This document shows, piece after piece, positions 27,579 to 39,828 of a stretch of DNA of 39,828 bases; position 1 is the stretch's first letter; each line of letters begins with the position of its first letter. A program made the translations under genes and the position numbers. Under the pieces are notes generated by a model. The model was given only the letters and a program-made list of their open reading frames with translations, made no database searches and had not been told where the DNA came from. Source of the stretch: Desulfobacterales bacterium (lineage in GTDB: Bacteria > Desulfobacterota > Desulfobacteria > Desulfobacterales > JANQIE01); the NCBI GenBank assembly GCA_028282295.1, contig JANQIE010000212.1, positions 1 through 39,828 of the forward strand, given 5' to 3'.

Positions 27579-28727
27579 ATGCCTGCTTCAGTCCAGCCTG
27601 AATATTCATATATCGATACCAGGGCCAAACTGCAGGCAGCTATGAAGCACCTGCAAGCGGCCCAAATCCTCGCTCTCGATATTGAAGCCGATTCCATGTT
27701 CCATTTTAAGGAGCGGGTCTGTTTGATCCAGATTGCAGCCAATGAGTCGGTCTTTTTAATCGATCCGCTTGTGATCGAGGACCTGAGACCATTGAAGAAG
27801 CTGCTGAAAAACCGGTCGGTGCCGAAGGTGCTGCATGGCGCCGATTATGATGTCCGGTCTTTGTTTCGCGATTTTAAAATCGTCCTGCCCGGCCTTTTCG
27901 ACACACAAATCGCCTGCCGTTTCCTCGGAATCACCGAAACCGGATTGGATGCGGTGTTAAATGCACGGTTCAATCTGAAACTGGATAAACGCTTCCAAAA
28001 AAAAAATTGGTCGCAACGCCCCTTGCCACCTGAGATGCTCGCCTATGCCGCTTCTGATGTGGCCTTTCTGATCCCACTTTATGGCCAACTGGAAGCTGAG
28101 CTGCAAACCAAAGAACGCCTGACGTGGGTGCTGGAAGAGTGCCGACGCCTGAGCAAGGTGCGCCCCCCGGTGGAAGACGATTGCCCGCTGTTCATCGGTT
28201 TTAAAGGCGCCGGCCGTTTGCGGCGCCGCAATTTGGCGGTTTTGGAAGCACTGTTGCAGTATCGGCGCAAAATAGCGCAAAAAAAAGACCGCCCGCTTTT
28301 CAAGGTGTTCAGTAACAAAGGGCTGATGACTCTGGCCGCGCACCCGCCTAAAACGCTACAGGAGTTGGACATGTCGGCCACCCTGAGCAAACGGCAAATC
28401 TCAATGTATGGCACCGAATTAATTCGAACGATCAAGGAGGCGATGCGGATCCCGCCGGCCGAGTTGCCGGTTTACCCTCGCCAAAAGCCGTCGCCCCCCG
28501 ACCCTCGGCTGCCTAGACGTATCAAGGCGCTAAAAGCCTGGCGCGACGGTATGGCCGAAAAGCTATCCATCGATCCGGCTTTGATCGCCAATAAAAACGC
28601 GTTGACCGCGATAGCCGGTCACATGCCAAATCGCATCAAGGACCTGCGCGCCGTCGATTGCATGCAAAACTGGCAAATCAAAGCGTTCGGCAGGGAGATT
28701 ATTGCCGCGTTGGATCAGGTTCGATAG
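27579..28727 (+). CDS. rnd: Ribonuclease D
   Basis: A 3'-5' exoribonuclease of the DEDDy family that trims tRNA and other stable RNA precursors. The 382-residue protein has the exonuclease domain in residues 1-195 with all motifs: D34 and E36 (LDIEAD), D91 (HGADYDV), and Y156-D160 (YAASD). One or two HRDC domains follow (about 212-290 and 310-380), which bind RNA. Length matches the family. The ATG at 27579 has only AAGAAA upstream. A short frame beginning at ATG 27563, better placed behind AGGGAAAAG, overlaps it and ends at 27601. Confidence 0.93.
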   Translation: MPASVQPEYSYIDTRAKLQAAMKHLQAAQILALDIEADSMFHFKERVCLIQIAANESVFLIDPLVIEDLRPLKKLLKNRSVPKVLHGADYDVRSLFRDFKIVLPGLFDTQIACRFLGITETGLDAVLNARFNLKLDKRFQKKNWSQRPLPPEMLAYAASDVAFLIPLYGQLEAELQTKERLTWVLEECRRLSKVRPPVEDDCPLFIGFKGAGRLRRRNLAVLEALLQYRRKIAQKKDRPLFKVFSNKGLMTLAAHPPKTLQELDMSATLSKRQISMYGTELIRTIKEAMRIPPAELPVYPRQKPSPPDPRLPRRIKALKAWRDGMAEKLSIDPALIANKNALTAIAGHMPNRIKDLRAVDCMQNWQIKAFGREIIAALDQVR

Positions 28728-28872
28728 GGCCTCATCCGGAAATTGTAGCTTTTGGTTCCTGGCAAGGCCCGAATATTTTTGAAACCGCAGGCATAGCGCG
28801 CTATTCCGAGGATTTCAAAAATGTGAGAACGCCGCCGGGGACCCAAAGAAGCTATTTCCGGACGGGCACAAG
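28728..28872 (-). repeat. Dispersed palindromic element, full copy
   Basis: An element of about 145 bp fills the gap between the rnd stop codon and the rhomboid stop codon exactly. Its ends are imperfect inverted repeats: GTGCCCGTCCGGAAATAGC read from 28869 on the minus strand, and GGCCTCATCCGGAAATT from 28728 on the plus strand. Inner inverted parts and a central palindrome, ATAGCGCGCTAT, make the whole unit foldable. The partial copy at 39733-39828 matches it closely over about 95 bp. There is no coding capacity, so it is MITE-like or REP-like. I cannot see a target-site duplication. Confidence 0.8.
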
Positions 28873-29607
28873 TTAATGAATCGTCGGCTTATCTTTATCC
28901 CCTTTCTTTCCTTTAACCACGGTAAAGCGTGATCGGCGCTTCTTCTGCTTGAACTGAAAAAATTTCCAATACCACCAATTATAATCGAGCCATTGGGTCG
29001 GCCCCCGGAAATAAAGGTAACCGAACAAGATTCCCCCTAGATGATAGGCGCCAAAAACATTGACCGTAGCCAAAAAGGTCAAGGTGGTCACGATAATCGT
29101 GCCGTAACTGATAAATTTGGCCTTGATCGGCAGGATAAACATGAACAGCACGGTCGACTCGGGGTGCATAAACCCAAAGGTCACAATGAGCGCCAGCAGG
29201 CTGGGGCTCATTCCCGCAAAGGGCGCGTGCAGGAAGGGCAACCCGCTGAATGCAAATCCGATCAGTGCCCCGCCCACCGCGGCACTGACGTAAAGAATAA
29301 GGAACCGGCGGGTGCCCAGGGCGTTTTCAATAGTACCGGCAAAAAAATAAAACACCAGGCATTGAAGCAGAAAATTGATGGGGGCGCCCGGATTATGCAA
29401 AAAGGGATGCGTAAAGAACTGCCACAGATGAAATTGATTGCTGCCCAGCGGGCTCAGGGCCAGCAAGCGGTAAATGGGCACTCCCACCCAGTGCTCTAAA
29501 ATTAATTCCAGCACATACACTACCGCGTACATGATGAGCATTTTTTTGCCTAAATCGGTTAAGGATGTTCCAAACTGAAACGAACCGTATCCACGTTGCG
29601 CAAACAT
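28873..29607 (-). CDS. Rhomboid-family membrane protein, altered active-site motif
   Basis: A 244-residue membrane protein with about six membrane segments and a basic, lysine-rich C-terminal tail. The rhomboid fold shows as FTHPFLHNP near 65-73, a helix with FLLQCLVFYFFAGTIENALG near 79-98, the catalytic-serine region AGMS134PS, and the catalytic-histidine region AYH189LGG. Rhomboids are intramembrane serine proteases. The usual GxSG is here G-M-S-P, so Ser134 and His189 remain but the following glycine is replaced by proline. It may be an active variant or a pseudoprotease. AGGAGA precedes the ATG at 29607. Confidence 0.85.
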   Translation of the reverse strand: MFAQRGYGSFQFGTSLTDLGKKMLIMYAVVYVLELILEHWVGVPIYRLLALSPLGSNQFHLWQFFTHPFLHNPGAPINFLLQCLVFYFFAGTIENALGTRRFLILYVSAAVGGALIGFAFSGLPFLHAPFAGMSPSLLALIVTFGFMHPESTVLFMFILPIKAKFISYGTIIVTTLTFLATVNVFGAYHLGGILFGYLYFRGPTQWLDYNWWYWKFFQFKQKKRRSRFTVVKGKKGDKDKPTIH

Positions 29608-29752
29608 AACGTCTCCTATCCGCGGCGCGTTGCGTTATGATCCGCTCGGCCGCACCTGCCACCGTGCAATGACGGGGCCGATCCCCAAGATATTCATACC
29701 GGCTCAGGTCGGGTTGCCTCTTGGGAAGAGACCGCCGGTAAAATCCAATCTT

Positions 29753-29944
29753 TTAGTCTGAATCGTGATGGTAACATAATAACGGCAATCTTGTATTTTT
29801 AACCGCATATGATTCTGAAAGCAAGGAGTTCGCGTATTTTCGAACGGTTTCGTCTTCGATTAATAAAAGTATGTAACGGTCGTCCATTTCCGGATGGACA
29901 CCGGCCAAAAAATGTTCGATACTGTGAAACGCGGCGTCATTCAC
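29753..29944 (-). CDS. Possible small protein, 63 residues, divergent from the hydrolase
   Basis: A short frame beginning with GTG at 29944 and preceded by AAGAG. The product has no cysteine-rich or membrane features except a hydrophobic RYILLLIEDE patch, and a charged centre. It is not recognised. It contains the GTGTCCATCCGGAAA sequence of the dispersed element in its reading frame (GVHPEM), so that match may be coincidence or domestication. The remaining part of 29608-29954 shows no gene. Confidence 0.3.
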   Translation of the reverse strand: MNDAAFHSIEHFLAGVHPEMDDRYILLLIEDETVRKYANSLLSESYAVKNTRLPLLCYHHDSD

Positions 29945-29954
29945 GGAGGCACTC

Positions 29955-30563
29955 TTGACTGAACCGATCAAATTTAAATCGAGCGCGCTTTGCCTGGAAG
30001 GCCGATTGAATTTCAGGGCCCCCCACAAGGGAGTTGTCATTACGCACCCGCATCCCCTCTATGGTGGCGCCATGAACAATCCGGTGGTGACAACCATCGC
30101 CGAGGCGTATGCCCTGCAAGGCTATACAACGCTATGCTTTAATTTCCGCGGCGTGGGCGCCAGCCAGGGGGCGTTTGACAACGGCCGGGGTGAACAGAGT
30201 GATGTGCTGGCCGCCATGGCTTTTCTCGCCGGCAAGGGGGTGACCGAAATCCATCTGGCCGGTTATTCCTTTGGGGCCTGGGTCAATGCCAATCTGACGG
30301 CCGCGGGCGCCGACGTTCACCGGATGGTGATGGTCTCGCCGCCGGTGGCCTTTCTCGAATTTGCCGGTGATATGACGTTGCCGCAACTCGACCTGGTTGT
30401 TTGCGGCGACCAGGACGCCTTTGCCCCTTCTTCCATGCTCGGCCCGGCCGTCCGGCAGTGGCATCACCAGGCGCGCCTGGAATTTATCCCACAGTGCGAT
30501 CATTTTTATTCAAACGGACTTCGTTCGTTGCGGGCACGATTGACCGCCCACCTAGAAAACTGA
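29955..30563 (+). CDS. Alpha/beta hydrolase (dienelactone hydrolase-like)
   Basis: A 202-residue single-domain alpha/beta hydrolase. The family pattern is clear: THPHPLYGGAMNNPVV near residues 30-45, FNFRGVGASQG near 63-72, nucleophile S105 in GYSFGAW, an acid in GDQDAF (D154), and H183 in CDHFYSN. Close relatives are COG2945-like esterases of unknown substrate. The start is TTG at 29955 behind GGAGG (29945-29949). The gene stands alone; the gap to the next gene (30564-30732) is A+T-rich and carries two direct repeats. Confidence 0.9.
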   Translation: MTEPIKFKSSALCLEGRLNFRAPHKGVVITHPHPLYGGAMNNPVVTTIAEAYALQGYTTLCFNFRGVGASQGAFDNGRGEQSDVLAAMAFLAGKGVTEIHLAGYSFGAWVNANLTAAGADVHRMVMVSPPVAFLEFAGDMTLPQLDLVVCGDQDAFAPSSMLGPAVRQWHHQARLEFIPQCDHFYSNGLRSLRARLTAHLEN

Positions 30564-30623
30564 AATTGGTTTTGTGGACCGATTATGCTATATTATGAAA
30601 CGTATTGAATTTACTATTTTTTA

Positions 30624-30693
30624 AAGTTCGAATGATTTTTTACGATATATAGATGATGATAAAATGATGCGCTTCTGTCCGATAAGTTCGAAT
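30624..30693. repeat. AAGTTCGAAT direct repeat, 60 bp apart
   Basis: The 10-mer AAGTTCGAAT occurs at 30624-30633 and 30684-30693, upstream of a sensor kinase gene. Its core TTCGAA is palindromic, so both copies could be binding sites. The surrounding sequence is A+T-rich with several near -10 hexamers. No promoter can be assigned firmly. Confidence 0.35.
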
Positions 30694-30732
30694 TTTGTAA
30701 ATGCTGCAGAAACATAATTAATTAGCTCCGAA

Positions 30733-32916
30733 ATGCGCCCCAAAATATTTAGTTTCGATTTTTTGATATCCGCGTTCAAAAAACCTCCCGTCATCGACAG
30801 CCCTGCCGACAATCTTGACGCCATGCGCCGCCAGTTGTTGAATTTCGCGCTATCCCTCGGATTGCCCGGTGTCTGCATATTCGCGACAGCAACAGTTCTG
30901 CGGGAAGATGGATTGTTGAGTGTGTTCAACATTCTTTTAGTAATTGTGGTGGCAATCTCCTATTTCATGCTCCCGCGGGTCAAACACGCCGTCATTATTT
31001 TCAGATTTTTTTTGTTTCCGATTTATCTGCTCTACCTGTATGAATTGTCGCTGGGCGGAGCGTATGGCGCCATGATTCATTGGGCCTACATCCTGCCTTT
31101 GTTAACATTTTTTCTTTTAGGTAAAAACGAAGGGGCATATTGGGCGGGGGTCGAATTCGTAGCGGTTCAACTGCTACTATGGGTCGAGCAACCTTTTTTT
31201 GAAGTTTACCCCTATCCTGTTCAAATCAAGGCGCGCTTCACAGCGGCCTACTTCGCCGTTATCTGGCTGGCCTATGTTTTCGAAAAATCACGCCATCGCT
31301 TCCAGCATTGGCTTGAAGAGGAAAGAGACAAACTGGCCGCCGCGGGTATTGAAAAAGAAAAAGCCAATAGCGCCCTGGCCGAATCGAATATCAATTTGCA
31401 CCGGGCCAAAGAACAGGCTGAGATTGCCAATCAGGCTAAAAGTGAATTTCTGGCCAACATGAGTCATGAAATCCGCACGCCGATGAACGCTATTCTCGGT
31501 TACGCCGATTTGTTGTATTCGGATCTGAAAGATGAGCAGTACCAGCATTATGTCCATATCATCAGAACCAGCGGTTCGAACCTGCTGCGGTTGATAAACG
31601 ATATCCTGGACTTGTCCAAAATCGAGGCCGGCCGCATGGAAATTAACCGGACCCCGATCGATATACGTTCGCTATTTAAAGAAATTCAGAATATTTTCTC
31701 GATCACGACGGCTCAAAAGGAAATCGGCCTTAAAATAAATCTGGCCGAACGGATCCCGGAATATTTAATGATGGACGAGGCGCGCTTTCGCCAGGTGTTG
31801 TTCAATTTAATCGGCAATGCCGTCAAGTTTACCGAAAAGGGTGGTGTCGATGTCATCGTCGATGTCGTCGCCACAAACAATCCGCAAACATGGACCCTGC
31901 AAATCGATGTAAATGACACGGGCATCGGCATTGATCCCAAGTTGCAAAGCAAAATTTTTCAAAGTTTCTGCCACGACACCTCGTTATCGGAAAAAAACAT
32001 CGAAGGCACCGGTCTGGGGCTGGCGATATCGAAAAATCTGGTGGAAATGATGGATGGTCAGATTACCGTACAAAGCGAGGCGGGCAAAGGCAGCCAATTT
32101 AAGCTGGTTTTTAACAATGTGGCCGAAGCGAAACACTCCGAAGCAATGGCCACCGCATCCAACGAACAGTCACCTGATCAAATCATTTTTCAGGAAGCAA
32201 CTATTTTACTGGCGGACGACCTGGAAATTAACCGCGAATTGGTGCGCAACTACTTAAACTCAGCACCGCTGTCGATCCTGGAAGCCGCAGACGGCCGCGC
32301 CGCGGTCAAAATGGCCACCGAATACCGGCCGGATATCATCCTGCTCGATATCAGAATGCCTGAATTTGACGGTTACGAGGCCATCCACAGGATCCGCGCA
32401 AACAGTCTGGCACCGGATGTGCCTATCATCGCGGTGACCGCGTCGGGAACATCAAAGGATATCGACAAAATAAAAACAGCCGGATTCGACGACCATCTTA
32501 TCCGGCCGTTTAGCCGGGTGGATTTGTTTCAACTGCTCGCCCGGTATTTACCCCACGAAAACACGGATGAACAGCAGGCGCACAAACCGGTCGATGAGAT
32601 GGCCGCCATTATGTCCACCGCCAAACTCGACGACCTGACCCGCTTCCCGAACGTTGTCGAGACGCTGAACAACGATCTTATCATCAAATGGGAGTCTATC
32701 AACAAACGGCAGAACCTGCCGAGAATCGAAGCCTTCGCCAAAAAGAACCAATCCATAGGCCAGCAGTACAATCTCAAATCCCTTTCCAATTATGGCCTTT
32801 TGTTGCAAAAACATACTGAAAATTGCAACATCAGCGGCATCATCGCCACCATGGCCAAGTATCCGAACCTGATCGATAATATCTGCCAATTCCAGCAAAA
32901 CAATGGGGCGCAATAG
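30733..32916 (+). CDS. Membrane hybrid histidine kinase with receiver and novel C-terminal domain
   Basis: A 727-residue hybrid sensor kinase. Residues 33-185 hold about six membrane segments and no large external domain, so the signal is probably membrane-borne or intramembrane. A coiled coil (about 188-235) leads to HisKA with H245 in MSHEIRTP, then HATPase_c (about 350-470; N box [16 protein letters not shown] and GTGLGLA). A receiver domain follows (about 490-610) with phosphoacceptor D539 in [11 protein letters not shown] and LIRPF with the usual charged switch. Residues 640-727 form a helical domain shared with the kinase at 35481-38618. The start at 30733 lacks a strong ribosome binding site. 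There is no response regulator beside it. Confidence 0.92.
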
Positions 32917-33037
32917 CCCCTGCACCGCCCGCCGCAACTTTTGATTGACTTGACAAATCGTACTCATTAAATTGTCGCTTCGGAAATGATATTCGCTATT
33001 TGATTGCGCAATATGGTGACGTTAAGGAGTAGGCAAC

Positions 33038-34215
33038 ATGCATAAAGTCCTGATAATTGGGGCCGGGGGCGTCGGCGGAGTGGTCACCCAAAAATGTGCC
33101 CAGGCGCCGGACGTTTTCAACGAAATTGTTCTGGCCAGCCGCACGCCGGCCAAATGCGAAGCGATCAAAGCCCGGATCGCGCGTCCGATTGAAACGGCGC
33201 AGGTGGATGCGGACAATACTGCGGAATTAGTCACATTGATCCGCAATGTGAAACCGTCACTGATCATCAATGTGGCCCTGCCTTACCAGGACCTGACCAT
33301 TATGGATGCCTGCCTGGAGACCGGTGTCAACTATCTGGACACCGCCAATTACGAACCGCCCGATGAAGCCAGGTTCTGCTACAAATGGCAGTGGGATTAC
33401 CATGATCGCTTCAAGGAACGGGGCATCATGGCGCTTTTGGGATGCGGGTTCGATCCGGGTGTGACCAACGTTTTTTGCGCCCATGCGGCCCAACAGCATT
33501 TTGACGAAATGCACGACATCGATATCATGGATTGCAATGCCGGCGACCACGGCCATCCGTTCGCCACCAACTTCAATCCCGAAATCAACATCCGCGAAAT
33601 CACCCAGCGCGGCAAATACTACCAGGACGGTCAATGGATCGAAACCGAGCCCCTGTCGGTGCACAAAACCTTCGATTTTCCACAGATCGGACCGCGCCAG
33701 ATGTATTTGATGTATCATGAAGAAGAAGAATCATTGGTAAAGAACTTTCCTTCCATCAAACGAATCCGTTTCTGGATGACCTTTTCCAGGGAGTATTTAA
33801 CCCACCTGCGCGTACTTCAAAACGTCGGCATGACCGGCATCGACCCGGTGCGCTTTGAAGGGCACGACATCGTTCCGCTGAAATTCCTCAAAGCACTGTT
33901 GCCCGATCCATCCACACTGGGTGCCGGCTACCAGGGAAAAACCTGTATCGGATGTATGATAAAAGGTGTCAAGAACGGACAGTCCCGCAAATACTACATC
34001 TACAACATATGCGACCATGCTCAATGCTACCGGGAAGTAAACGCCCAGGCGGTTTCCTATACCACCGGCGTGCCGGCCATGATCGGCGCGCGCCTCATGC
34101 TATCGGGCCAATGGTCCGGCAAGGGCGTATTCAACGTTGAGGAATTTGATCCGCGTCCGTTCATGGACAGTCTTAACAAATACGGCCTGCCATGGCAGGA
34201 AATATTTTTGGAACC

Positions 34216-34219
<4 letters not shown>
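33038..34219 (+). CDS. Carboxynorspermidine / carboxyspermidine dehydrogenase
   Basis: A 393-residue saccharopine-dehydrogenase-like enzyme that condenses aspartate semialdehyde with a diamine and reduces it with NADPH, giving carboxynorspermidine or carboxyspermidine. It shows an N-terminal Rossmann fold (GAGGVGGVV, about residues 8-16), YLDTANYEPPDEA near 101-113 and GCGFDPGVTNVF near 133-144. The family is often annotated saccharopine dehydrogenase, but the decarboxylase immediately downstream identifies the polyamine role. AAGGAG is well placed before 33038. The stop overlaps the start of the next gene by four bases. Confidence 0.92.
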
Positions 34220-35355
<1,136 letters not shown>

Positions 35356-35361
35356 GCCGAC

Positions 35362-35478
35362 TTTTTGCACGAGCCCTAAGATTGCAAAAACCGGAGGACT
35401 CCGGAGCCAAGGGAAGCTGTAGTCAACCTACCGCGAGCCCTTGGCAACGCAGGATCTGAAGTCCTCCGGCTTTTGCAA
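35362..35478. repeat. Long hairpin between nspC and the second kinase
   Basis: The two convergent genes are separated by a large inverted repeat. TTGCAAAA(A)CCGGAGGAC at 35382-35399 pairs with GTCCTCCGG(C)TTTTGCAA at 35461-35478, and inside it GCCAAGGG (35406-35413) pairs with CCCTTGGC (35438-35445). The left flank, 35362-35380, is similar to the right arm of the repeat at 5693-5768. It may act as a bidirectional terminator and probably belongs to a dispersed palindrome family. Confidence 0.7.
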
Positions 35479-35480
35479 CC

Positions 35481-38400
35481 TCAGGGTTCACCGGGTGGCG
35501 GCAGTATTTGCTCCACCATGGCCGGGAAGCGATCCAGCATGGCTTTAATGCCGTCGATTTCAAAGCGTTGGACATACAGCGACAAGGTCTGACCGTACTC
35601 TTGCAGCATCGTCAAGTCATGTTGTTTGGCGATCCCCCGAACACCCTCGGCAAAATCCTCAATATCGGGAATGCGCTGTTTGCGACGCGCTTTTTCCCAT
35701 TTCACATTCAACGTCGTCTTCAGTACTTCAGCGACCTCGGGTGGGCATTGCCAAACGGCGGCCACCGCCTGTGCATCGCCTTTCGCTTCATCCGCACCGG
35801 CCGGATCGGTTTTGGGCGCTTCATGCTCATAGGGTAGATGACGTGTTAAAATCTTCAGCAACTCGAATTTATTGAACGGCCGGATGAGATAGCCGTCAAA
35901 GCCCGCTTTCAAAATTTTGGAAATATCCTCCTTCATACCGGCCGCCGTGATTGCCACGGCCGGAATGGCCTTAAGATCCTCATTGGCACGTATACGGGCG
36001 ATGGCACCATAACCGTCAAGTTCAGGCATTTTGATATCCATTAGGATAAGATCAGGCTTGTGTTTACGGGCCGCCTCAATGGCGGCGAGACCGTTCTCGG
36101 CCTCCAAAATTTTGATATCGGTGGCATCCAAGTATGTTCGAATCAAATCGCGATTGACTTCCAGGTCGTCCGCGACCAACACCCTGGCCGGATTGAAGAC
36201 AATGGTGTCCGGATCAAAATCGACGTATTCGAGCAGCGGCTGCAATGTCTTGGCATTTTTCGCTTCGGCAACATTGCGCAAGACGATTCTAAACACGCTG
36301 CCCTGGCCCACGCGACTGCGCAGACTGATTCGTCCCCCCATCATTTCGATCAGGTTTCTGGAAATGGCCAGTCCCAGGCCGGTCCCTTCGACCCTGCGGG
36401 TATTTGAAGCGGCGTGCTGCCGAAATGTTTCAAATATAACGTCATGCAATTTCGGGTCGATCCCCACACCGGTGTCCCTGACATCGATGGAAAGATCCCA
36501 GTGCTTCACTCGCCGCCCCGGCACCGCGGCCGCCGTGATTTTGATGTAGCCTTCATTGGTGAATTTCACGGCGTTGCCGATCAGATTAAACAACACCTGG
36601 CGCAATCGGGCCTCATCCAGTAACAAGATGCCGGGTATATCGGGGGAGACGTTCAGCAGCATTTGGATGTTCTTTTCGGCAATGCTTATCGAAAAGATCC
36701 GTTTTACTTCGCTTAACAAGGTTGGAATGCTGACCGGGGTGTTGTGGATCTCCATGCGGCCGGCTTCAATTTTGGACAAATCGAGAATATCGTTGATCAA
36801 CTGGAGTAAAGACGCGCCGCTGGATTTAATGGTTTGCGCATAATGCTTTTGTTGCGGGTCCGCAATCAATGCTTCAAGAATGTCGGCAAAACCGAGAATG
36901 GCGTTCATCGGTGTACGGATTTCATGACTCATATGGGCCAAAAATTCACTTTTGGCTTGATTGGCGGCTTCGGCCGCCTCGCGTTCCTTTTCAACCTGTT
37001 CTTTGGCGCGCCGACCGGTGATATCGATAAAAAAGCCCTCGAAATACTGCAATTGCCGGTCTTCGTTGTATACAGCGCGGACCGACAGAGAAACCCAAAT
37101 GATACTGTTGTCCTTGCGATAAATGCGCGTTTCAAAGCCGACCACCTGGCTTTGGTCGCTCAGACGACGACTCAGTTGTTTATAATCTTCAACATCGACG
37201 AAGATTTGCCGGGCGATATCGGTAATCTGCGTTTTCACTTCGTCGATGGATGCATATCCGAGCATCTCTACCAGGGCCGGATTCACCGAAATAAAACGTC
37301 CTGGATGAACCGTGCTTCGAAAAATGGCTTCAAGGGCGTTTTCGTATAGTGAGCGGTAATTTCGCTCGGATTTTTCCAATTGCGTCTTGGATTGGTGCAA
37401 GGCTTCAATGTACTGATCGATTTCATCGTTGCGCTTGTGTAAAATGGCAGTCATCTGATTAAATGACGCGGCCAGCGTGCCGATTTCATCCTTTGTTTTT
37501 ACCTGGACACGCTGGTCAAACCGTTTTTCGGTGGCGATCATGTGCATCTGCTGGGTAATGTCGGCCAGCGGCTGGGCGATCTTGCGCGTCAGGATAATGG
37601 TGATCGCCGTGGCGACGACCAGCCCGATCAGTAAACCCAGGCAGTAAAGATAGATAACCCGGCGCGCATTGGCGCGTAGCGGCTCCTTGGACACATAGGC
37701 AAACAAATACGCCACAATATCGGTCCGGTAGTAATACGGCGTCGTCATCATGTAATATTGTATGGCATCCGCCTTGACCGAAGACAACCGCTCGTCTTTT
37801 CGGGGCAGGTTAAGCGGATCGATATGGGTTTTATCAATATCCGGATGACTAGCGGTCAGCCAGAGCCCCTGGGCCGAACACAACGCCACACGGCTGCGTG
37901 CAAATTCAGCGAATTGCCGCAGCCGTGCCGCGGTGATATATTTTTCCAAAACAATCGCGGCTACCGGCGCGGTTTCGTATATATTGCGCGTTCGATCGAA
38001 TAGTGTCGCCTCGATAATTCCTTTGGCTTCGATGACAAAACGATTTTCACCAAAAAGAAAACGCACCTGGGCGGACTGCTGAAACACGTCGCTTACCGGC
38101 GTAAGCTTGCGTGGCTCCGTCGGCTGCCACAATTCGGTAGAAAACCGGATGCGTGCAGAAGGGCTGGCAGGAATATGGTGGACCGGCCGGCCCTGCTCAT
38201 CCGGGGTCACCACGACGATTCTTTGATGGCTGGCGTAGCCGTACAATTCGTCCGGGCCGTAGAGGGCCACAAAATCGTAGTCTTTATGGATAATCTTGGT
38301 TTGAAGCTGCTGAAGGATTTTGCTTTGCAGACTTCTTTTAAGGTCCCGGGTTTCCGGTTCGACCGATTCAAACAACACCTTGGCGTCTTCAGCCATACCG

Positions 38401-38618
38401 GCGGCGATATCTTCGGCCGCCAAAGTCTGTTTCAAATCCTCGACGATTCGGTCCAGCGTGGTTTTAAGTTGGGCATTGGCAATTCGCAGACTGGTTTGGG
38501 CGCTTTTTTTATTCTGGTCGGCAGTTATCCACAGCAGCGTAATCGTAACAAAGGTTGTTGCGAGCAGCAGCGGGATAATCGCTTCAAATAGCAGTTTGTC
38601 CCGAAGAGATAAGTACAT
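35481..38618 (-). CDS. Hybrid histidine kinase with Cache sensor, HAMP, PAS and receiver domains
   Basis: A 1045-residue sensor. Membrane segments at about residues 12-32 and 324-347 enclose a large periplasmic domain with a Cache-like pattern. HAMP (about 345-400), a PAS domain with its PAC-like end (about 425-545), HisKA with H565 in MSHEIRTP, HATPase_c (about 660-785) and a receiver with D861 in LMDIKMPELDG follow. The last 100 residues form the helical domain shared with the kinase at 30733-32916. The gene lies downstream of a periplasmic binding-protein gene on the same strand (39 bp gap), so the binding protein may present its ligand to the Cache domain. The output partner is not adjacent. 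Confidence 0.93.
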   Translation of the reverse strand: MYLSLRDKLLFEAIIPLLLATTFVTITLLWITADQNKKSAQTSLRIANAQLKTTLDRIVEDLKQTLAAEDIAAGMAEDAKVLFESVEPETRDLKRSLQSKILQQLQTKIIHKDYDFVALYGPDELYGYASHQRIVVVTPDEQGRPVHHIPASPSARIRFSTELWQPTEPRKLTPVSDVFQQSAQVRFLFGENRFVIEAKGIIEATLFDRTRNIYETAPVAAIVLEKYITAARLRQFAEFARSRVALCSAQGLWLTASHPDIDKTHIDPLNLPRKDERLSSVKADAIQYYMMTTPYYYRTDIVAYLFAYVSKEPLRANARRVIYLYCLGLLIGLVVATAITIILTRKIAQPLADITQQMHMIATEKRFDQRVQVKTKDEIGTLAASFNQMTAILHKRNDEIDQYIEALHQSKTQLEKSERNYRSLYENALEAIFRSTVHPGRFISVNPALVEMLGYASIDEVKTQITDIARQIFVDVEDYKQLSRRLSDQSQVVGFETRIYRKDNSIIWVSLSVRAVYNEDRQLQYFEGFFIDITGRRAKEQVEKEREAAEAANQAKSEFLAHMSHEIRTPMNAILGFADILEALIADPQQKHYAQTIKSSGASLLQLINDILDLSKIEAGRMEIHNTPVSIPTLLSEVKRIFSISIAEKNIQMLLNVSPDIPGILLLDEARLRQVLFNLIGNAVKFTNEGYIKITAAAVPGRRVKHWDLSIDVRDTGVGIDPKLHDVIFETFRQHAASNTRRVEGTGLGLAISRNLIEMMGGRISLRSRVGQGSVFRIVLRNVAEAKNAKTLQPLLEYVDFDPDTIVFNPARVLVADDLEVNRDLIRTYLDATDIKILEAENGLAAIEAARKHKPDLILMDIKMPELDGYGAIARIRANEDLKAIPAVAITAAGMKEDISKILKAGFDGYLIRPFNKFELLKILTRHLPYEHEAPKTDPAGADEAKGDAQAVAAVWQCPPEVAEVLKTTLNVKWEKARRKQRIPDIEDFAEGVRGIAKQHDLTMLQEYGQTLSLYVQRFEIDGIKAMLDRFPAMVEQILPPPGEP

Positions 38619-38638
38619 GCAAAAAACAGTCGGCTTTA

Positions 38639-38668
38639 GTGTCCACCCGGAAAAAGACTATTTCCAGC
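38639..38668. repeat. Partial dispersed element between binding protein and kinase
   Basis: GTGTCCACCCGGAAA (38639-38653) followed by CTATTTCCAG matches the ends of the dispersed element in reduced form. It overlaps the last codons of the binding-protein gene; its stop codon lies in CTATTTCCA. The similarity is short and could be partly chance. Confidence 0.4.
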
Positions 38669-39620
38669 GTCTATATTCCAGTGACAGGGCTTCAATTTGT
38701 TCAACATTGTGACGGTTCACCACGCCCAGGCCGGTATCCAGATTCGAAGGCACCAATTTGTGCTGATTTGCCAGCACCAGCATTTTAATAGACATAAAAC
38801 CTTGCAGATAGGGTTGTTGGTCAATGGTAAAGCCAACAAAGCCACTGCGGATATAGTTCAACGTCCGGTGCGACAGGTCAAAGCTGCCGATATACAAAGG
38901 ATGCTTCTTCGACTCAATAAATTGGCCGATCGGGTGCAATACCGATGGCCCCAGGCAAAAAACCGCCGTTAGGTCTTTATGGGTTTGATAAAATTTTTCA
39001 AATACCTTTTTGATTGTCCGCTCATTATTGGTGGTATCGAGTTTGACGACTTTGACACCCATCGGCGTCAAAACATCCATGATACCTTTGGTGCGCGCTT
39101 CCAATCCGACGTGGCCCGGTTGATGGTTCAAAACCACCGCGAAATTACCGAGTTGTCCGGACTTCAGGGCACAACGGCCGGCCAATTTCCCGGCCGCGTA
39201 ATCGTCGGTGCCAATGTAGGCCAGATAGGGGTTTTTCACGCGATCACCATCCAGCGGCCGGGCATTGAACGCCACTACCGGTATACCTAAAATTCGCGCC
39301 CGTTGCAAAGCGCGGGAAAACACGCCGGCATCGCTCAAGGTAACCGCTATACCAGCCGGTCGCGCCTTTAGCGCCGATTGCAGCAGTTCAAGCTGGCGCG
39401 TGATATCGTTGGGTGTTTCCGGAGCCAGGATGCGCAAAGGAACGCCGAACTCCCTGGCCGCGTCGTAGGCGCCTTTGAACTCGATTTTCCAGAAAGGGTC
39501 CGCCGCACCGGCATGCGAAACCATGAAATAGCGTTGTCCGGCATAAAGGATTGTACCGCCACCGAGCCCTAAAATCAGAATCAATCCGGCGGCCAGCAAT
39601 AGTTTGGTCTGTCGTTTCAT
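38658..39620 (-). CDS. Periplasmic sugar-binding-type protein, likely kinase partner
   Basis: A 320-residue protein of the periplasmic binding protein type used by ribose, galactose and AI-2 systems (Peripla_BP_4-like). An N-terminal hydrophobic segment (about residues 6-28) acts as a signal peptide or anchor. The two-lobed fold shows as FMVSHAGAADPFW near residue 32-44, ITRQLELLQSALKARPAGIAVTLSD near 70-95, GIPVVAFNARP near 111, and YIGTDDYAAGKLAG near 132-145. No ABC permease or ATPase genes follow; a hybrid kinase does, so signal presentation rather than transport is likely. The start is uncertain: ATG 39620 has no clear ribosome binding site, and a GTG at 39662 would add a short N-terminal extension. 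Confidence 0.85.
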   Translation of the reverse strand: MKRQTKLLLAAGLILILGLGGGTILYAGQRYFMVSHAGAADPFWKIEFKGAYDAAREFGVPLRILAPETPNDITRQLELLQSALKARPAGIAVTLSDAGVFSRALQRARILGIPVVAFNARPLDGDRVKNPYLAYIGTDDYAAGKLAGRCALKSGQLGNFAVVLNHQPGHVGLEARTKGIMDVLTPMGVKVVKLDTTNNERTIKKVFEKFYQTHKDLTAVFCLGPSVLHPIGQFIESKKHPLYIGSFDLSHRTLNYIRSGFVGFTIDQQPYLQGFMSIKMLVLANQHKLVPSNLDTGLGVVNRHNVEQIEALSLEYRRWK

Positions 39621-39732
39621 TTTTCTGTTTTTGACCAGATAATAAAGGAAAGCGGAGATCACGGCCCCTGAAATCAGTTGCCGGAATCGTTTACCGCGCT
39701 GATCCAGATTATAATCGGGTGGACATTAACTA

Positions 39733-39828
39733 GTGCCCATCCGGAAATAGCATCTTTTGGCCCCCGGCGGCGTTCTCGCATTTTTAAAATCCTCGACATA
39801 GCCCGCTATGCCTGCGATTTTAAAAATG
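39733..39828 (+). repeat. Dispersed palindromic element, cut by the window edge
   Basis: Starting with GTGCCCATCCGGAAATAGC, this stretch is close to the element at 28728-28872 read on the minus strand, and covers its first 95 or so bases, including the ATTTTTAAAAT(CC) and GCTATGCCTGCG parts of the core. Even the flanking CATTAACT is shared. The second end should lie just past 39828. Confidence 0.75.

Follow-up and report, generated by a model that had tools for sequence, protein, structure and literature searches.

What does a sensor kinase respond to when its gene directly follows that of a periplasmic solute-binding protein and no transport genes are seen beside the two? The question is raised by a gene pair at one end of a 39,828-nucleotide stretch of DNA (the window), which is one whole contig (JANQIE010000212.1) of a 326-contig genome of a Desulfobacterales bacterium (GCA_028282295.1) of the same order as Desulfonema magnum. 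A sequence-only reading made earlier had described a tandem of binding protein and hybrid kinase at 35481-39620, and both genes were indeed found there:

38658..39620, minus strand: Peripla_BP_4 solute-binding protein, 320 amino acids; start ATG at 39620, alternative start GTG at 39662
35481..38618, minus strand: hybrid sensor histidine kinase, 1045 amino acids, 39 bases 3' of the binding-protein gene

The two genes are co-directional, the binding protein first and the kinase second, and they have the adjacency that characterizes couples of a binding protein and the sensor kinase that it activates; the same adjacency is repeated in a Mariprofundaceae locus (L038). We propose that the two proteins are the halves of one periplasmic receptor, in which the ligand-loaded binding protein would dock on the Cache domain of the kinase and set its activity, the ligand being a cyclitol or a related sugar. 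We put the probability of this proposal at roughly 0.7. It is supported by the adjacency and co-direction of the genes, by two membrane segments flanking a predicted double-Cache domain in the kinase, and by the recurrence of the pair in Mariprofundaceae.

The layout of the kinase turned out to be as follows, all features being on the minus strand:

38526..38582: first membrane segment, residues 13-31 (hydropathy)
37653..38525: periplasmic sensor domain, residues 32-322, predicted double-Cache fold (predicted structure)
37587..37643: second membrane segment, residues 326-344 (hydropathy)
37440..37592: HAMP, residues 343-393 (Pfam)
37020..37361: PAS, residues 420-533 (Pfam)
36759..36956: HisKA, residues 555-620, with H565 (codon 36924-36926) (Pfam)
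36276..36617: HATPase_c, residues 668-781 (Pfam)
35847..36182: receiver (REC), residues 813-924, with D861 (codon 36036-36038) (Pfam)
35505..35750: C-terminal helical domain of weakly HPt-like shape, without a conserved histidine (model and alignment)

With HisKA, HATPase_c and receiver domains, and with the catalytic H565 and the receiver D861 in place, the protein is a hybrid sensor histidine kinase. The Cache-HAMP-PAS order given for it earlier also stood, the HAMP, PAS and kinase domains by Pfam and the Cache domain by predicted structure. Pfam gave no domain match between the two membrane segments, dCache_1 (PF02743) included, and a search of the PDB sequences with the sensor domain alone returned no match at E 10. 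An AlphaFold model of the sensor domain was built from a seven-row alignment (mean predicted local distance difference test score [pLDDT] 81.3, predicted template modelling score 0.74); it shows a long N-terminal helix with two sheets of the PAS type, and Foldseek and VIA-align grouped it with the double-Cache domains. The top crystal-structure matches were chemoreceptors, such as Tlp3 (chains up to Z 13.7). The periplasmic domain of LuxQ also aligned with the model (2hje, Z 11.4, root mean square deviation 3.3 over 185 residues; 3c30, Z 11.2; 1zhh_B, from the complex with LuxP, Z 10.9), as did a Desulfohalobium "extracellular ligand binding receptor" (5ere, via its residues 353-593). Since Tlp3 chains score higher than LuxQ, the modelled fold is that of LuxQ, yet common to many other receptors and so not LuxQ-specific. 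Among the seven sensor homologues only one matched dCache_1, and weakly (0.065); in 17 members of the sensor family Pfam gave only weak matches for this domain, the best Cache-type one being to dCache_3 (22.5 bits, cut-off 25.7).

The fold itself provides the first point against a two-part receptor. A double-Cache domain is equally compatible with direct ligand binding, and many of the top structures are listed with small ligands, so the kinase could bind its own small ligand, the binding-protein gene next to it being unrelated or merely co-regulated. We regard this as an unlikely explanation, albeit the most serious of the alternatives; further evidence on both of its sides comes from the distribution of the genes, described below.

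We then turned to the binding protein. It carries a hydrophobic N-terminal segment (residues 7-25 by hydropathy) and matched PF13407 with 141.8 bits against a cut-off of 35.1, in agreement with its earlier description as Peripla_BP_4-like. Its closest solved relative by far was PDB 3rot (1.9e-59; runner-up, 5.7e-26), which we take to be from Legionella pneumophila; no open-access paper linking "3ROT" with "periplasmic" was found. In a tree of 19 rows, the binding proteins of the window, D. magnum, genome G043 and Mariprofundaceae formed one clade together with 3rot (support 99/99). Proteins linked to transporters formed the neighbouring branch, and the join of this branch to the clade was supported at 93/92. 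Several members of the neighbouring branch lie in inositol operons, namely in Thermus (with iolD), on contig C71 of the genome under study (with the 3-dehydro-scyllo-inosose hydrolase IolN above the cut-off and an IolG-like gene below it) and in genome G166 (with IolN and IolO, both above the cut-off), while a more distant relative from Shinella adjoins kduI and kduD. The best NCBIfam match of the window protein was to the rhizopine protein NF052284, at 149.7 of the 420 bits needed for membership. The inositol and rhizopine binding proteins of ATP-binding cassette (ABC) transporters (NF052284; Thermus, C71) are thus its nearest transporter-linked kin.

The likeness extends to the presumed binding site. 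An alignment gave D41, F43, W44, T94, D97, N119, R176, D248, D267 and Q268 as candidate pocket residues, the choice of ligand-touching positions being guided by the pocket of ribose-type proteins. The Thermus and C71 inositol proteins have identical letters at D41, W44, D97, N119, R176, D248, D267 and Q268. At position 121, in contrast, the window clade has R and the inositol proteins G, and this R121 could point to a charged ligand. We class the binding protein with the type I sugar/cyclitol binders, and the most probable ligands would be cyclitols, inositol among them, or else related sugars or sugar acids. Two points weigh against this part of the proposal: the evidence for this class of ligands comes from relatedness and from the alignment of residues, and the 93/92 support for the join to the inositol branch falls below the starred level. 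A search of the open-access literature found no paper which by its title concerns a sensor kinase reading inositol via a solute-binding protein, which is no proof of absence.

The inositol and rhizopine proteins differ from the window clade in having permease and ATPase genes alongside, and it has to be asked whether the window protein, too, serves an ABC importer, one encoded past the end of the contig, with the kinase only regulating that importer. The contig ends just 208 bases upstream of the binding-protein start, and binding proteins of the neighbouring branches do serve importers. In the window, as the sequence-only reading had noted, no transport genes were seen in the part read (28000-39828), the sequence upstream beyond the contig end being unseen. 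Against an importer stands the clade itself, for which no adjoining permease or ATPase was found in the stretches read from D. magnum (16.9 kb), G043 (11.4 kb) and Mariprofundaceae (6.8 kb), and we consider this explanation very unlikely. PF02653 permeases had 18 matches genome-wide, and the operon context was read for those on contigs C71 and C60, one on each: the former is accompanied by its own binding protein, and the operon of the latter contains an ABC_sub_bind protein. The remaining 16 matches are eight two-permease pairs. The contig terminus itself is formed by an imperfect inverted repeat (39779-39828), which may be the reason why the assembly stopped there.

If the binding protein and the kinase work together, they may be expected to occur together, and we determined the distribution of both. 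Near relatives of the binding protein were few: among 194 related genomes only D. magnum (54% identity) and G043 (48%) had one, the next match being at 30%, and at E 1e-20 matches were found in 6 of 389 genomes of the class, its own genome counted. A scan of one genome per species gave D. magnum and a Mariprofundaceae metagenome-assembled genome (MAG; 48%), as well as a short stretch of the protein in a MAG of the Azospirillaceae. This fragment (L039, 5601-5723) matches about 40 N-terminal residues of the binding protein with 68% identity, as if it were a truncated copy.

In the Mariprofundaceae locus, 7 bases separate the binding-protein gene from a downstream kinase gene whose product has a homologous sensor (29% identity over 431 columns). 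The alignment of the two kinases bypasses the PAS domain, and no receiver was seen before the contig end, so that the input pair is kept here and the rest of the kinase is changed. Nothing else speaks as strongly for a working pair as this recurrence, which also argues against direct binding, as the same type of binding protein and the same type of sensor stand side by side on a different kinase chassis. Upstream of the pair (L038, 585-3579) lie a gene resembling enzyme I of the phosphotransferase system (PTS; judged by eye) and a LamB-type porin (Pfam, 4e-76); the porin and the PTS-like neighbour are compatible with a sugar-related ligand.

Each partner was also found alone, which counts against the proposed receptor. 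The D. magnum binding protein has no kinase alongside in the stretch read. At the G043 locus a PAS kinase is present only on the other strand, and the genome gave no sensor-family match in a search with a seven-row profile of the sensor (E 0.001). Conversely, the nearest full-length relative of the kinase (G024, 35% identity over 1060 columns) has no adjoining binding protein, and no match to the window binding protein was obtained in G024 at E 0.001; a full-length kinase that does without the binding protein favours direct ligand binding. The sequence-only reading had linked its interpretation to the conservation of the pair, and in this respect it was borne out by half: the two genes are together in Mariprofundaceae, but D. 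magnum and G043 have only the one and G024 only the other. The G024 kinase (L074, 4238-9450) has a WYL regulator and a REC-GGDEF protein alongside on the same strand, and because of this REC-GGDEF gene cyclic di-GMP is one possible output. Directly upstream of the orphan binding protein of D. magnum (L037, 3321-7846) we observed two proteins with an N-terminal Peripla_BP_6 domain, whose C-terminal parts show a weak likeness to Cys-loop ion channels (PDB E about 0.01 for one and at least 0.3 for the other).

Further evidence was sought in the neighbours of the sensor family as a whole. As a search of 395 genomes of the phylum with the single window sensor matched only G280 besides itself, the seven-row profile was adopted; it matched 37 of the 194 related genomes at E 0.001 and 14 of the 395 phylum genomes at E 1e-20. 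We examined 50 loci, comprising the 48 near-full-length ones of 67 profile rows (19 partial or weak rows were left out) and two that came from other searches (L038 and L052). A same-strand binding protein of the Peripla_BP_4, Peripla_BP_6 or Bmp family lay within 700 bases in 19 of the 50, of which 9 neighbours were confirmed by Pfam and those outside the Pfam scans were judged by eye. Four of the 19 were Peripla_BP_4 (the window, L038, L118 and L126), one was Bmp (L075) and 14 were Peripla_BP_6-like; in the G067 locus the sensor-family gene stands directly 3' of a Bmp-family binding protein. When the loci were sorted by output, such a neighbour was present in 8 of 10 kinases and SpoIIE phosphatases, a proportion that again speaks against direct binding, in 9 of 38 chemoreceptors, and in both of two cut, unclassed genes (L113 and L142). 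The output classes were taken from sequence motifs for L038, L074, L075, L124 and 27 chemoreceptors, and from Pfam for the others.

The 40 best-scoring dCache_1 genes of the same genomes, mostly chemoreceptors, served as controls. None of the 40 had a Peripla_BP_4, Peripla_BP_6 or Bmp neighbour, a count that is biased, the binding-protein profiles having been built partly from proteins seen in the sensor-family loci. When any binding-protein family was admitted, at least 5 of the 40 controls had a Pfam-confirmed neighbour (L162, L166, L168, L183 and L185; ABC_sub_bind or NMT1-like), and a sixth is possible (L170, which resembles L166 and has no Pfam match); re-examination of the sensor loci without a profile match for other binding-protein families added none. 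An ABC_sub_bind (PF04392) protein alone adjoins 4 of the 40 controls on the same strand (L162, L168, L183 and L185), so binding-protein neighbours are not rare among the double-Cache receptors of this order. That even dCache_1 controls adjoin a binding protein in at least 5 of 40 cases favours an accidental neighbourhood, and with it a kinase that binds its ligand directly.

For the statistics the window and L038 were left out, both having been found via their binding protein. Kinases and phosphatases then had a binding-protein neighbour in 6 of 8 cases versus 5 of 40 controls (Fisher P 0.0009). The other comparisons weaken the case for a receptor made of two proteins. For all outputs together the count was 17/48 versus 5/40 (P 0.012), and chemoreceptors alone were not clearly above the control (9/38 versus 5/40, P 0.16). 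In a sample from outside the order a binding-protein neighbour was found in 1 of 11 loci only; both samples pooled gave 18/59 versus 5/40 (P 0.03, or 0.06 with the doubtful sixth control). The excess sits with the kinases and phosphatases and, because the controls are mostly chemoreceptors, it could reflect the type of output and not that of the sensor.

Three sensor-family loci (L052, L218 and L127) have a LivF-type ATPase directly upstream, as judged by eye, and at the place of L052 a Peripla_BP_6 gene lies 5.4 kb upstream (L229). Two irregular genes were observed as well: the sensor-family chemoreceptor gene at L150 3829-5850 (G076) is interrupted by one in-frame TGA, and the Peripla_BP_6-like neighbour at L113 6140-7422 (G116) is spread over two open frames that overlap, as a frameshift would leave it. 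A more general idea, which we offer tentatively and hold to be rather doubtful as a whole, is that the sensor domain represents a widespread group of double-Cache domains, not covered by a Pfam model of its own, on which type I solute-binding proteins of at least three families (Peripla_BP_4, Peripla_BP_6 and Bmp) dock, chiefly where it belongs to a kinase or a SpoIIE-type phosphatase. The branch that senses cyclitols would then be represented by the window pair, its binding proteins forming a clade no longer engaged in transport.

The genes on the other side of the kinase could suggest a different signal. At 33038-35355, on the plus strand, nspC (TIGR01047, 483.1 bits, cut-off 409.05) and a carboxynorspermidine synthase-like gene (415.9 bits, below the cut-off of 800) lie between the kinase and a second hybrid kinase (MASE6; 30733-32916, plus strand). 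With nspC adjoining the kinase and the synthase-like gene nearby, a sensor of norspermidine or another polyamine, resembling NspS-MbaA, had to be considered. But the kinase gene and nspC converge, tail to tail, and hence share no promoter, the window binding protein is of the sugar type, and no nsp genes were seen, by eye, in the stretches available from the four other loci that carry the binding protein, whole or as a fragment. Known polyamine-binding proteins belong to another fold class than sugar-type ones. On these grounds the norspermidine sensor was judged weak and set aside as highly improbable.

The second hybrid kinase shares with the kinase of the pair 48% identity over 512 columns, from HisKA through the C-terminus, and the last approximately 100 residues of both form a common helical domain, a tail with seven matches genome-wide when both window copies are counted. 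Pfam gave no HPt match for the kinase up to E 0.1. A model of the C-terminal domain (mean pLDDT 72, middling) had weak HPt fold matches (best E 0.03), and no conserved histidine column was present across three homologues; an HPt output domain was rejected for these two reasons.

The proposed receptor could then work as follows. The ligand-loaded binding protein would dock on the double-Cache domain, and docking would shift the kinase between its autokinase and phosphatase states. The signal would pass through the HAMP and PAS domains to H565 and from there to D861. Because a conserved histidine is lacking in the helical domain at the C-terminus, the phosphate would probably be passed on to a phosphotransfer protein distinct from the kinase or to a free-standing regulator.

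Two further loci of the same genome attracted our attention. On contig C92 (L043, 2902-6343) a RhaS/LsrB-like Peripla_BP_4 protein is encoded directly upstream of a HAMP-PAS hybrid kinase. Its matches to TIGR02637 (6.9e-63) and LsrB (1.1e-47) are both below the cut-off, no permease was seen in 12 kb, and two more large genes resembling membrane receptors lie upstream; this pair is a better candidate for sensing autoinducer-2 (AI-2) or rhamnose than the one in the window. On contig C88 (L045, 1-2708) two similar consecutive binding proteins, one of them Bmp by Pfam, precede a sensor-like gene that is truncated where the contig ends.

The kind of system proposed here is already known; its exact version is new, and its interest lies in a ligand class that can be tested and in a sensor family for which Pfam has no model. 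Few kinases have been described that read a binding protein (11 characterised couples are counted in an excerpt of PMC11113362), and for most sensor systems the ligand has yet to be identified (PMC6321045). If the pair does act as one receptor, its soluble and easily screened binding protein offers a direct handle on the signal, and a double-Cache domain read via a binding protein would warn against naming the ligands of receptors from the Cache domain alone. The sensor family, through the 19 of its 50 loci described above and above all the 8 of 10 kinases and phosphatases, supplies more candidate pairs.

How, then, does the window pair compare with the known systems? In 10 of the 11 characterised couples the genes for binding protein and kinase are adjacent or very close, as given in an excerpt of PMC11113362. 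The same excerpt bears on the opposite side too: adjacent but unlinked pairs, which would suit direct binding, are on record, and since AgtS and AruS did not bind their neighbouring binding proteins, adjacency is no proof of contact. The complexes of three couples, LuxP-LuxQ, TorT-TorS and XylFII-LytS, have all been solved (excerpt of PMC6321045).

LuxP-LuxQ of Vibrio, which senses AI-2, was the couple named in the sequence-only reading. It resembles the window pair in the kinds and order of the genes, a binding protein and a hybrid kinase, and in the double-Cache/PAS periplasmic fold (2hje, Z 11.4), and the kinase core matches the LuxQ model. But the match to the LuxQ equivalog (NF041947) reached only 317.5 of 1200 bits and covered residues 396-925 only, LuxP was absent from the best 60 of 71 PDB matches of the binding protein, no luxS match was found at E 0.001, and the nearest transporter-linked kin are of the inositol type. 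A true AI-2 receptor homologous to LuxP/LuxQ was rejected as the leading explanation on the LuxQ score, the LuxP rank and the luxS search, and it has hardly any likelihood left. What the earlier reading had observed was right, and its general interpretation, sensing through a binding protein, is likely in view of the Mariprofundaceae recurrence, the loci of three near-complete relatives in which no transporters were found in the stretches read, and the neighbour counts of the kinases; its AI-2 label is unlikely.

TorT-TorS, which senses trimethylamine N-oxide, likewise combines a Peripla_BP-type protein with a hybrid kinase. TorT models matched weakly (3.1e-8 for the window binding protein, 1.8e-16 for the Mariprofundaceae one) and the scores fell well short of membership (33.2 of 310 bits, and 31.3 of 200 with the other model). 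TorS was the best NCBIfam match of the kinase, below the cut-off as well (358.1 of 676.5 bits, residues 543-934 only).

XylFII-LytS of Clostridium beijerinckii, which senses xylose, is also a Peripla_BP-type protein working with a sensor kinase. Its structure, 5xsj, matched the window binding protein at 7.5e-19, among the best 60 of 71 PDB matches, and is presumably the best-scoring of them that is known to have a kinase partner. The entry holds the complex of XylFII with the sensor domain of LytS (excerpt of PMC6321045). The window pair differs from it in that xylose is not indicated and that its kinase is a hybrid with a receiver domain. LytS has another domain layout and another output. If our inference holds, the window pair would, by analogy, work in the manner of LuxP-LuxQ, TorT-TorS and XylFII-LytS, without being LuxP/LuxQ.

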